From contig JAIXXC010000177.1 of assembly GCA_027490985.1 (NCBI GenBank), positions 1-34,331 of the forward strand: 34,331 bases of DNA. The letters are read 5' to 3'. This document shows positions 13,185-16,648 of the stretch, piece by piece; the stretch's first letter is position 1, and each line of letters starts with the position of its first letter. The notes beneath the pieces are model-generated. The model did not search any database. It was not told the origin of the DNA and worked only from the letters and a program-made list of their open reading frames with translations. The stretch comes from Verrucomicrobiales bacterium. GTDB taxonomy: Bacteria > Verrucomicrobiota > Verrucomicrobiia > Limisphaerales > UBA9464. Made by a program: the position numbers and the translations under genes.

Positions 13185-14219
13185 CTACGACGACGACGCG
13201 GGCCCCTCGCCGAGCCGACGCTCCAATTCCTGAACGCGGCGCAGCAACTCGGGCAACCGTTCCATGGCCAGATACTGGCGCTTCATGACGCGGTCGGGCC
13301 CGGCCGGGGAGCCCATCCATTTCTGCCCCTCGGGAATGGAGTGCATCACTCCCGACTGCGCCGCGATGGTCACCTTGTCGGCGATGCGCAGGTGTCCCGC
13401 CACCCCGACCTGCCCCGCGACGGTGACGTAATTGCCGATCTTGGTGCTGCCCGCGATGCCCACCTGGGCCACCAGGATGCAATGCTCCCCGATGGTCACG
13501 TTGTGGGCGATCTGGACGAGGTTGTCGATCTTGGTGCCCCGCCCGATCACCGTGGCCCCCAGGGCGGCCCGATCGATGGTCACATTGGCCCCGATCTCCA
13601 CATCGTCATGGATGATCACCTGCCCCACCTGCGGCACCTTGCGGTGTTCGCCCTTGTCGAAGACATACCCGAAACCGTCGGCACCGATGACCGAACCGGC
13701 ATGGATCCGAACCCGTCGACCCAGCGCCGTGCGGGGATACAGGGTGACATTCGGATACAACCGGCATTCCTCGCCCACGATACAGTCGTCGGCGATGGAA
13801 TTGCGACCGATGAGGACCGCCTCGGCCCCGATCCGGACCCGTTCGCCGATGACACACTGGGGCCCGACATGCGCCGACGGATCGATCCGCGCCGAAGCGG
13901 CCACGACCGCCGACGGATGGATGCCCGCAGGCAGGACGGGCTCGGGGAAGAACAGCGGCAGCACCTGGGCGAAGGCCACCCGGGCATTCTCCACCTGCAC
14001 CAGCGTCTTGCCCGTGGACGAGCGGAACTCACCCGCCACCAGGATCGCCGAGGCCGCACTCTGGTCGGCTCTCAGGAAATACGCCTCATTCTCCGCAAAC
14101 GTCAGGTCACCCGGCCTGGCCCCATCGGCCGGAGCGAACCCGGTCAATTCCAGGGAAGGCTCACCCACGACACGGCCACCGACACGCTCGGCGACCAGAC
14201 TGGCAATCAAGGTTGGCAT
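13185..14219 (-). CDS. lpxD: UDP-3-O-acylglucosamine N-acyltransferase
   Basis: MPTLIASLVAERVGGRVVGEPSLELTGFAPADGARPGDLTFAENEAYF...IHPSAVVAASARIDPSAHVGPQCVIGERVRIGAEAVLIG...GADGFGYVFDKGEHRKVPQVGQVIIHDDVEIGANVTIDRAALGATVIGRGTKIDNLVQIAHNVTIGEHC: left-handed beta-helix hexapeptides and LpxD signature. Confidence 0.95.
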   Translation of the reverse strand: MPTLIASLVAERVGGRVVGEPSLELTGFAPADGARPGDLTFAENEAYFLRADQSAASAILVAGEFRSSTGKTLVQVENARVAFAQVLPLFFPEPVLPAGIHPSAVVAASARIDPSAHVGPQCVIGERVRIGAEAVLIGRNSIADDCIVGEECRLYPNVTLYPRTALGRRVRIHAGSVIGADGFGYVFDKGEHRKVPQVGQVIIHDDVEIGANVTIDRAALGATVIGRGTKIDNLVQIAHNVTIGEHCILVAQVGIAGSTKIGNYVTVAGQVGVAGHLRIADKVTIAAQSGVMHSIPEGQKWMGSPAGPDRVMKRQYLAMERLPELLRRVQELERRLGEGPASSS

Positions 14220-14330
14220 AAGAAACGGTCTTCCGCAGACAAGCTCCGCGACACCGGCTAAAACCGGCGCCCCAGCATCACCGTCCCCACCCCCGGCACA
14301 CAACACTTCGTTTCCCCACCCCCGTCACCC

Positions 14331-14446
14331 GGCAGCGGGATCGGGTCGGAGCAAGCACTGGAAGCGATCCGCAAAAACCCCGGCGCGAAGCGCAAAGCCC
14401 CGCCTCCCCAGAGCTTACCTGCGAGCGCAGGCCCGGTCCCGCTGCC
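14331..14446. repeat. Structured intergenic repeat with terminal inverted repeats, copy 1 (116 bp)
   Basis: GGCAGCGGGATCGGG ... CCCGGTCCCGCTGCC (15-bp ends, one T/G change). First 40 nt identical to copy 2. Internal hairpins GCGC-GAA-GCGC and CCTGC-GAGC-GCAGG. Confidence 0.85.
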
Positions 14447-14463
14447 CCACCACTCCACTCCTT

Positions 14464-14578
14464 GGCAGCGGGATCGGGTCGGAGCAAGCACTGGAAGCGA
14501 TCCACAATCCCCCGGCGCGAAGCGCAAAGCCTCACCTCCCCCGAGCTTACCTGCGAGCGCAGGCCCGATCCCGCTGCC
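14464..14578. repeat. Structured intergenic repeat with terminal inverted repeats, copy 2 (115 bp)
   Basis: GGCAGCGGGATCGGG ... CCCGATCCCGCTGCC: perfect 15-bp terminal inverted repeat, same internal hairpins, separated from copy 1 by 17 bp. Confidence 0.85.
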
Positions 14579-14584
14579 CCCCCC

Positions 14585-16648
14585 TCATTCAACGGTATCC
14601 AAATACCGGTGCAGCCACTCGAAGATCGTCGCATGCCAGAGCCGACTGTTCTGCGGCTTGAGCACCCAGTGCCCCTCGTCCGGAAAGTACAGCAACCGAC
14701 TCGGGACCCCCTGACGCTGCAACGCCGTGAACAACGCCAACCCCTGCCCCACCGGCACCCGGTAATCCAATTCGTTGTGGATGATCAGATTCGGCGTGCG
14801 GAACCGGGCGGCGAAGCGGTCGGGTGAATCCCGATCGAACCCCCGGGTCTTCCACGGAACCCCATGCTCCCACTCGTCGAACCACAACTCGTCCGTCGAC
14901 CCATACATCGAGTGGAACTCGAACACCCCGCAGTGGGTCACCAGCGTCTTGAAGCGGTCGGTATGCCCCTGGAACCAATTCATCATGTACCCGCCATAGC
15001 TGGCCCCGGCCGCGGCCATGCGCTTCCGGTCGACCCACGGCTGCCGCTCGCACCAATCCAACGCCGCCATCAGGTCCCCGAAGACCTTGCCTCCCCAATC
15101 CCGCGAAATGTCGTCGGTGAACTTCTGACCAAACCCAGTCGACCCCCGCGGATTGGGCATGGCCAACACCCAGCCCTGCGCCGCCCACAACTCCGGATTC
15201 CAGCGGTACGACCACCCATCGAGAAAGGCCCCTTGAGGCCCCCCGTGCACCCAGAACACCAGCGGATACCGCTTGGACGCATCGAACCCCGGCGGCTTCA
15301 AGATCCACATCTGGACCGGCACCCCACCCTGCCCCTTCACCGTCACCGATTCCGGAACCGGCAGGGTCCACGCCGCACGCCGGTCCGCATTCGGATCCCA
15401 CAGCGTGATCACACGACCCGAGGCGATCTCCACCGACTTCAGCACCGCCGGCGAATCCATCCGCGACTCCAAATACACCACCGAAGCCCCGTCGGATGCG
15501 AACACCGCATCACCCGCCGATCCCACCGTGGTCAAAGCCCGCGGCGCCGAAGCCCCGTCCAATCCCACCCACCACAACTGCTTGCGTCCCTGCGACTCCG
15601 CCTCGATGACCAACCGCCCGTCCTTCGACCAGGCGATCCCCTCCACCGAATGATCCCAGTCGCGGGTCAGGCTGCGGACCTGCCCGGTCTTCAGATCGCG
15701 GAGCATGAGTTGCCACCGGTCCGCCTCGAAGCCGGGCCGCGACTGGGCCCGGTAGGCCAACCAGCGCCCCTCCGGCGAATAATGCGGGCACCCGTCGGCC
15801 GCCCGTTGCGAGGTCAGCACCGTGCGTGCGGAACCGTCCACCGACACCGACACCAGATTGTGATCGGTGGACCACGACTCCTCGCGCACCGGAGCCGGCG
15901 AGGGCGTGTGGACCAACGACTTCGAATCCGCCGACCACTCGAACTCGTCGCCCGCGGCGAAGGTGCTCGACCAGGGCACCGCATCCTGCGGGCCCGGAGT
16001 CAGGTCCACGGGGTCTCCCACGGCCGCGCCGTCGGAGACCGACACCACGAAGAGGTGGTTGCGCCGGCCGTCGTTCATCGCATCCCACTTGCGCACCGGC
16101 AGCGCGTCGTACACCCGGGCTTTCACCTTCCCCTTTTCCAGCCCCTGGATCCGCTCCCGGTTCAGGCGTTCGGATTCCCCCGGGGACTTGCCGGAAAACT
16201 CCGGATACACCGACGACAAGAAGGCGATCCGGGAACCGTCGGGCGACCAGACAGGAGCACTGGCCCCGGTGGCAAGACGCGTGATCGCCCGGGCCTCGCC
16301 GCCTTCCACCGCCTGGACCCACACTTGGAACTCCCCGTCGCGATTGGACTCGAAGACCAGCCATCGCCCATCCGGCGACCACCGGGGGTGACGATCATGC
16401 TTGGGCGACGCGACGCACTTCCGCGGGGCCCCACCGGCGGCCGGCACCAACCAGATGTCGCTGTCGGTGCGGTTGTCCCCCAGATCGGGCGTGGTCACCA
16501 CACAGGCGATCCATCGACCGTCCGGAGATGGTTGGGGATCGCTCAAGCGCTGGAGGGAAGCCAAGTCCTCGAAGGTGAGCGGGTGTGACGCGGCCTCCGC
16601 GGAAAGCACCATCGCCGACACCAACCCCGACAGAATCGCCCGAAACAT
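14585..16648 (-). CDS. S9 family peptidase (prolyl oligopeptidase / dipeptidyl aminopeptidase-like), secreted
   Basis: MFRAILSGLVSAMVLSAEAASHPLTFEDLASLQRLSDPQPSPDGRWIACVVTTPDLGDNRTDSDIWLVPA (propeller) and catalytic domain KRYPLVFWVHGGPQGAFLDGWSYRWNPELWAAQGWVLAMPNPRGSTGFGQKF...AAAGASYGGYMMNWFQGHTDRFKTLVTHCGVFEF...DEGHWVLKPQNSRLW. Confidence 0.95.
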   Translation of the reverse strand: MFRAILSGLVSAMVLSAEAASHPLTFEDLASLQRLSDPQPSPDGRWIACVVTTPDLGDNRTDSDIWLVPAAGGAPRKCVASPKHDRHPRWSPDGRWLVFESNRDGEFQVWVQAVEGGEARAITRLATGASAPVWSPDGSRIAFLSSVYPEFSGKSPGESERLNRERIQGLEKGKVKARVYDALPVRKWDAMNDGRRNHLFVVSVSDGAAVGDPVDLTPGPQDAVPWSSTFAAGDEFEWSADSKSLVHTPSPAPVREESWSTDHNLVSVSVDGSARTVLTSQRAADGCPHYSPEGRWLAYRAQSRPGFEADRWQLMLRDLKTGQVRSLTRDWDHSVEGIAWSKDGRLVIEAESQGRKQLWWVGLDGASAPRALTTVGSAGDAVFASDGASVVYLESRMDSPAVLKSVEIASGRVITLWDPNADRRAAWTLPVPESVTVKGQGGVPVQMWILKPPGFDASKRYPLVFWVHGGPQGAFLDGWSYRWNPELWAAQGWVLAMPNPRGSTGFGQKFTDDISRDWGGKVFGDLMAALDWCERQPWVDRKRMAAAGASYGGYMMNWFQGHTDRFKTLVTHCGVFEFHSMYGSTDELWFDEWEHGVPWKTRGFDRDSPDRFAARFRTPNLIIHNELDYRVPVGQGLALFTALQRQGVPSRLLYFPDEGHWVLKPQNSRLWHATIFEWLHRYLDTVE

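Follow-up and report, generated by a model that had tools for sequence, protein, structure and literature searches.

A dispersed, foldable repeat family of lake Verrucomicrobia, represented by two units upstream of lpxD and oriented with local GC skew

A pair of repeat units upstream of lpxD in a Verrucomicrobia genome raises the question of whether they are a matter of this locus only, as a local duplication or an lpxD leader, or members of something more widespread, and if so, what they are and how they came to be there. We analyzed the window, meaning the whole stretch of 34,331 nucleotides, together with related genomes; the window genome is a Verrucomicrobia MAG, and all genomes compared are draft MAGs. 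The two units stand head to tail, are 93% identical (BLAST) and lie between genes, with a minus-strand S9-type peptidase gene on one side and lpxD on the other. Their ends have the form GGCAGCGGGATCGGG / CCCG[G,A]TCCCGCTGCC, and the units, on either strand, fold more stably than 199 of 200 dinucleotide-shuffled sequences (z -2.8 to -3.7). The first-pass annotation had described this tandem pair from the letters alone, and its coordinates, 17-bp gap, inverted ends, small hairpins and intergenic position all hold. It was also right to place lpxD downstream of the repeats, but the gene starts at a conserved ATG at 14220, not at 14219.

14220: conserved ATG of lpxD, on the basis of TIGR01853 and PRK00892.1, both above cut-off
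14331-14446: repeat unit 1; match to covariance model R1 at 14330-14450, 102.7 bits; the G-rich 'sense' strand of the family is the minus strand
14447-14463: spacer between units 1 and 2, 17 bp
14464-14578: repeat unit 2; R1 match at 14463-14582, 106.7 bits; orientation as unit 1
14585-16651/16720, minus strand: S9-type peptidase gene, stop at 14585

A dispersed family of intergenic repeats

In the window genome, BLAST finds 27 matches when the window copy is the query and 31 when a consensus-like query is used, and R1 finds 27, so that the pair is not a local duplication. Over 19 genomes of the same genus, R1 finds 27-135 copies in 11, 5 and 16 in two others (G010 and G016) and none in six (G004, G006, G008, G009, G013 and G014). 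As no more than 150 candidates per genome were scored with R1, the high counts are lower bounds: at least 135 copies in G007, 117 in G011, 87 in G017, 78 in G018, and 77 each in G001 and G005, followed by 72 in G015, 69 in G003, 57 in G012, 54 in G002 and 27 in G000. With stricter filters, an order-wide sample of 196 genomes gave matches in two only, G000 and G022, the latter belonging to another genus of the same family and carrying one copy. Every named record matched by the conserved core pattern is a Verrucomicrobia MAG, several of them from named lakes; some are titled Akkermansia muciniphila, which we take as the depositors' label and not as evidence of species. Viral, phage and plasmid collections yielded no match, which led us to reject a home of the repeat there. 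Rfam 15 returned nothing at gathering thresholds and nothing credible at permissive ones, and the open-access literature that we searched held no description of the family. The two units are members of an undescribed, foldable dispersed repeat family of about 120 bp, found in one clade of lake Verrucomicrobia. The earlier suggestion of a dispersed, MITE- or REP-like repeat is borne out in that there are many copies in the host genome (about 27-31) and in relatives, a covarying structure and no overlap with coding sequence.

Copies occur singly or in head-to-tail arrays, and none of 139 clusters (67 of them multi-copy) is of mixed direction. Using gene calls from our own hexamer caller, we found 0 of 248 copies within called genes. 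Array spacers measure 16-24 bp, or about 70-300 bp where other repeats intervene. In the flanks of singletons, conservation stops after one G upstream and after GCCGCT downstream, and the unit with its conserved edges comes to about 122 bp. The flanks of 41 singletons give no signal of target-site duplication, the longest flank repeat averaging 4.83 against a null of 4.92 +/- 0.16; the flank check proposed earlier came back empty. Several contigs of the window genome end in arrays. Truncated copies end near model position 30 at several sites (G011_C31:89353-89382, L038:1639-1668, L113:653-682 and L115:1189-1220) and near position 55 at others (L086, L099 and L104); these recurrent truncation points suggest preferred breakpoints.

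The lpxD site carries one to several copies in nearly all element-bearing species. At the related lpxD site of G016 we see, judging by eye, degenerate sequence only, and in lineages without the element the region upstream of lpxD differs. Other orthologous intergenic regions differ between species in having or lacking copies, and no exact insertion junction was recovered at the orthologous sites compared, because these are too diverged. Between the repeats and the ATG (window 14220-14330, and the same place in L112-L121), a block conserved across species, GGGGAAACGAARTGTTGTG ... GCCGGTTTTNGCCGGTG, is probably the lpxD promoter or leader.

Fold and covariation

We derived the fold from 66 copies less than about 88% identical, read on the window plus strand. 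It consists of a single long, imperfect hairpin made up of P1, P2 and P3, which encloses a small stem, P4, and conserved inner sequence. P1 is GCGGGATCGG-CC with its complement and is followed by a 3x3 internal loop. P2 (GCRAGCA/TGCGAGC) has two purine-purine positions that are Watson-Crick in some copies (e.g. GCCCGC/GCGGGC). P3 is GGAAGC/GCTTCC, also found as GGAGGC/GCCTCC, and is GGAACGT/ACGTTCC in one subfamily; in 17 of 66 copies it shows an A-U to G-C double change. P4 is a GCGC hairpin. In unit 1 these parts lie as follows.

14331-14345, plus strand: P1 5' arm, GGCAGCGGGATCGGG, partner 14432-14446; double changes in 8 of 12 pairs, 95% of cells paired
14351-14357, plus strand: P2 5' arm, GCAAGCA, partner 14420-14426; the middle two positions are purine-purine here
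14360-14365, plus strand: P3 5' arm, GGAAGC, partner GCTT-A-CC at 14413-14419 (bulged A)
14383-14393, plus strand: P4 hairpin, GCGC-GAA-GCGC; double changes in 3 of 6 pairs
14413-14419, plus strand: P3 3' arm, GCTTACC
14420-14426, plus strand: P2 3' arm, TGCGAGC
14432-14446, plus strand: P1 3' arm, CCCGGTCCCGCTGCC

Double changes occur in 20 of 31 pairs, compared with 7.3 +/- 1.7 after shuffling, and none of 500 shuffles reaches the observed value. Double-change cells number 88 against 19.2 when shuffled and 6-20 with slid partners, the slid control favoring the fold since the structure was derived from the copies tested. The stronger evidence is the shuffles, together with locus L120, where the sequence of the terminal stem P1 is wholly replaced and its pairing kept. 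Of the fold proposed earlier, the terminal stem and the GCGC-GAA-GCGC hairpin covary, and the outer stem goes on inward as P2 and P3. The cloverleaf-like form is not supported, as its CCTGC/GCAGG arm has no double changes, nor is the competing GGATCG/CGATCC pairing, which lacks covariation and does no better than shuffles. Fixed, MITE-like terminal inverted repeats are likewise at odds with a terminal stem that can be fully rewritten while staying paired, and with flanks free of target-site duplication.

A single G-U pair had led to the suggestion that the repeat is read as plus-strand RNA. Over 68 copies, stem deviations comprise 56 G-U and 63 A-C, or 56 and 36 once two doubtful pairs are left out, and in unpaired columns a mutational excess of C>T is about as large as the difference between G-U and A-C. 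The strand preference was apparent in a first alignment and gone once all stems were counted. In 17 tRNAs from the same DNA, the counts are 26 G-U and 0 A-C, though the tRNA caller itself demands pairing. Because G-U and A-C are nearly balanced, we read the structure as one maintained in the DNA, not in a single strand of RNA.

Orientation along replication strands

We compared the G-rich strand of the family, which is the minus strand in the window, with local GC skew computed with the elements masked and gene direction corrected. The two agree in 105 of 114 clusters (p 7e-22) in a pooled set that includes orthologous sites, and in 53 of 54 clusters where |skew| exceeds 0.1. The independent tests are those within single genomes, and here the orientation is again near-absolute: 33/35 in G007 (p 4e-8), 25/27 in G011 (p 6e-6), 15/16 in G003 and 12/14 in G000. 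Three of the nine exceptions stem from a single orthologous locus (in G011, G007 and G003), and several others lie at near-zero skew. As called genes are nearly balanced with respect to skew (527 vs 496), the polarity of the repeat is not a by-product of gene direction. The window itself has negative skew and both units on the minus strand, as the polarity predicts. This orientation was absent from the first-pass annotation.

As general background, the G-rich strand is the leading one. Of eight genomes read, six have the rplB operon on the G-rich strand, with the opposite arrangement in G016 and an ambiguous one in G004. On the basis of GC skew and rplB direction, the G-rich strand is probably the leading strand in these genomes also. 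That almost all copies point one way relative to replication suggests that single-stranded DNA at the replication fork is what the repeats use to spread, or what they act on. A search for dif, meant to place the terminus, came up empty in 19 genomes.

The most polar frequent octamer in about 1.0 Mb of strong-skew regions, elements masked, is GGGCAGGG (76 vs 11, 87%). It fits the E. coli KOPS, GGGNAGGG, and its polarity suggests that these Verrucomicrobia have an FtsK guide like that of E. coli. No octamer scored outside the elements, GGGCAGGG included, is as polar as the repeat (about 92-98%). The element itself does not contain this KOPS-like octamer, and on that ground we set aside a role for the repeat as an FtsK/KOPS carrier.

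Ribosomal-protein-operon contigs of six carrier genomes (G000_C179, G007_C2, G003_C167, G011_C51, G017_C310 and G015_C26; 269 kb) hold no copy where about 5 would be expected, with the caveat that copies are clustered, which no more than hints at uneven placement.

Origin of the repeat and comparison with known systems

We tentatively favor a model in which the family is a new, non-autonomous dispersed repeat of about 122 bp that enters the lagging-strand template as folded single-stranded DNA, in an HUH/REP-like manner, and amplifies locally. New copies would enter the single-stranded lagging-strand template in folded form, as modeled on the IS200/IS605 and REP elements, which are thought to move through HUH (Y1) transposases. 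Entry of this kind would set the direction of each copy with respect to the fork without producing a target-site duplication, and arrays could then grow by tandem duplication or by insertion beside existing copies. Mobile elements that use the single-stranded lagging-strand template via HUH enzymes provide a precedent for the orientation (PMC6006769). HUH-type insertion of single-stranded DNA fits the polarity, the folding, the lack of target-site duplication and the company that the element keeps with REPs. Against this model, no transposase is tied to the element among the Y1 genes examined, the RAYTs carry other REPs, the hairpin is unlike the IS200 layout of two subterminal hairpins, and selection could instead maintain the polarity.

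Short REPs or other repeats flank several of the 20 Y1 loci examined. Among these loci, the element adjoins a Y1 gene at one orthologous locus only (G011, G001, G017 and G002), and in the window genome all four Y1 matches are on contigs without a listed copy. A RAYT had looked promising as carrier, since three genomes have copies about 130 bp away from a Y1 gene, but it was rejected: all three cases are the same orthologous locus, and the repeats that flank the RAYTs are different from the element. Short REPs of consensus GGGGTCGGTCCCACCTATTTACACAAAAGGGGACACTCT flank the RAYT genes of the genus; they are nearly confined to the element's repeat islands and share its polarity (47 vs 6 near the element, 3 elsewhere), a co-location that is partly by design, as most regions were picked for holding the element. 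The RAYT flanks at L131, L133, L132 and L138 bear CAAAGGGGTCGGTCCTCACTATTGACACAA-type repeats, which at L132 and L133 face opposite ways on either side of the gene, and relatives of these recur in repeat islands beside the element. A second repeat of about 100 bp (GTGCCCCAACGGGGCA...CCCGGGGTGAAACCCCGGG...) flanks IS200-like genes (L127, L128 and L130) and also lies between element copies (L055, L086 and L190).

The main rival, which we consider unlikely but worth taking seriously, is a chromosomal site held in fixed orientation by selection and read one way, folded or as duplex, by a fork- or replichore-tracking host process, with segregation, priming, termination and recombination as candidates. 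It draws on a polarity of the repeat above that of any scored octamer, on structure maintained across deep divergence, on the retention of copies at the lpxD site in most element-bearing species and on the hint of uneven placement from the ribosomal-protein-operon contigs. Set against it are the six same-genus genomes without the element and the many sites lost or gained, by which it is not essential in the genus, and the missing KOPS-like octamer. A folded DNA site of about 122 bp with its orientation under selection, serving a fork-directed process such as lagging-strand priming, segregation or termination, seems to us less likely again. We know of no polar chromosomal element of such size and structural complexity in other bacteria.

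It is improbable that the repeats are transcribed into a structured small RNA or an RNA-processing element. Covariation is strong, and the plus strand of the window has purine-rich internal loops (GA/GA and GGA/GCA) of a kind that would fit an RNA fold, but G-U is not clearly preferred to A-C on either strand, as it is in the tRNAs, both strands fold about equally well, copies take every arrangement relative to neighboring genes, and Rfam has no match. The chances of a classical MITE, mobilized by a DDE transposase acting on terminal inverted repeats of fixed sequence, are poorer by far: the inverted terminal stem and high copy number would fit, whereas end sequences vary with pairing kept (L120 and L020), target-site duplication gives no signal, orientation is non-random and arrays run head to tail only. 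Finally, copies do stand upstream of lpxD in most element-bearing relatives, but a purely local origin by tandem duplication, or a role confined to that of a cis-regulatory lpxD leader, as had been proposed, is scarcely credible, being refuted by the dozens of copies elsewhere in the genome, beside unrelated genes and in all orientations to them.

The insertion model that we favor invites comparison with REP, BIME and REPIN sequences (RAYT, TnpA-REP), for which movement in single-stranded form by way of HUH enzymes has been proposed (PMC6006769, PMC3733652). Like these, the element is intergenic, palindromic, present in many copies, clustered in tandem and specific to a species group. REPs, however, are stem-loops of 20-40 bp with a GTAG (or CGTC) foot tag, whereas the element measures about 122 bp and is flanked by G-rich sequence upstream and GCCGCT downstream, with no such tag. 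It is also one long hairpin, never arranged as inverted pairs, with near-absolute replichore polarity, and while REP copies flank their cognate RAYT gene, the RAYT genes here are flanked by other REPs and not by the element. With IS200/IS605 and their non-autonomous derivatives the element shares a predicted folded single-stranded form, the lack of target-site duplication and an orientation bias to the lagging-strand template, the leading strand being inferred from GC skew and rplB direction. It differs in having no two separate subterminal hairpins, no TnpA linked to it among the Y1 genes examined and no identified tetranucleotide target.

KOPS, SRS and Chi-type motifs are likewise oriented along replichores, but these are 8-mers read as duplex, and the element is a covarying hairpin of about 122 bp with tens to about 135 copies. 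ERIC, NEMIS (Correia) and RUP MITEs are intergenic, about 100-150 bp long, with a long terminal inverted repeat and conserved terminal sequences. They resemble the element in size and inverted ends; its terminal stem covaries and its orientation is polar, and it has neither the conserved terminal inverted repeats nor the target-site duplication of a DDE MITE. The element ends, GCGG[A/C]AGCGGG / CCCGC[GGAGC/TGCC] in the alignment consensus, to which this comparison is confined, do not hold the integron attC core sites R'' RYYYAAC / R' GTTRRRY. For most small dispersed bacterial repeats there is no clear rule of orientation. A repeat that is high in copy number, covaries and is oriented along the replichores is a natural record of the strand used by such elements, and it allows a test between two sources of orientation, insertion into the lagging-strand template and selection for a directional function. 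Its arrays explain many contig ends, and the repeat offers a marker of replication direction for draft genomes of uncultured lake bacteria.
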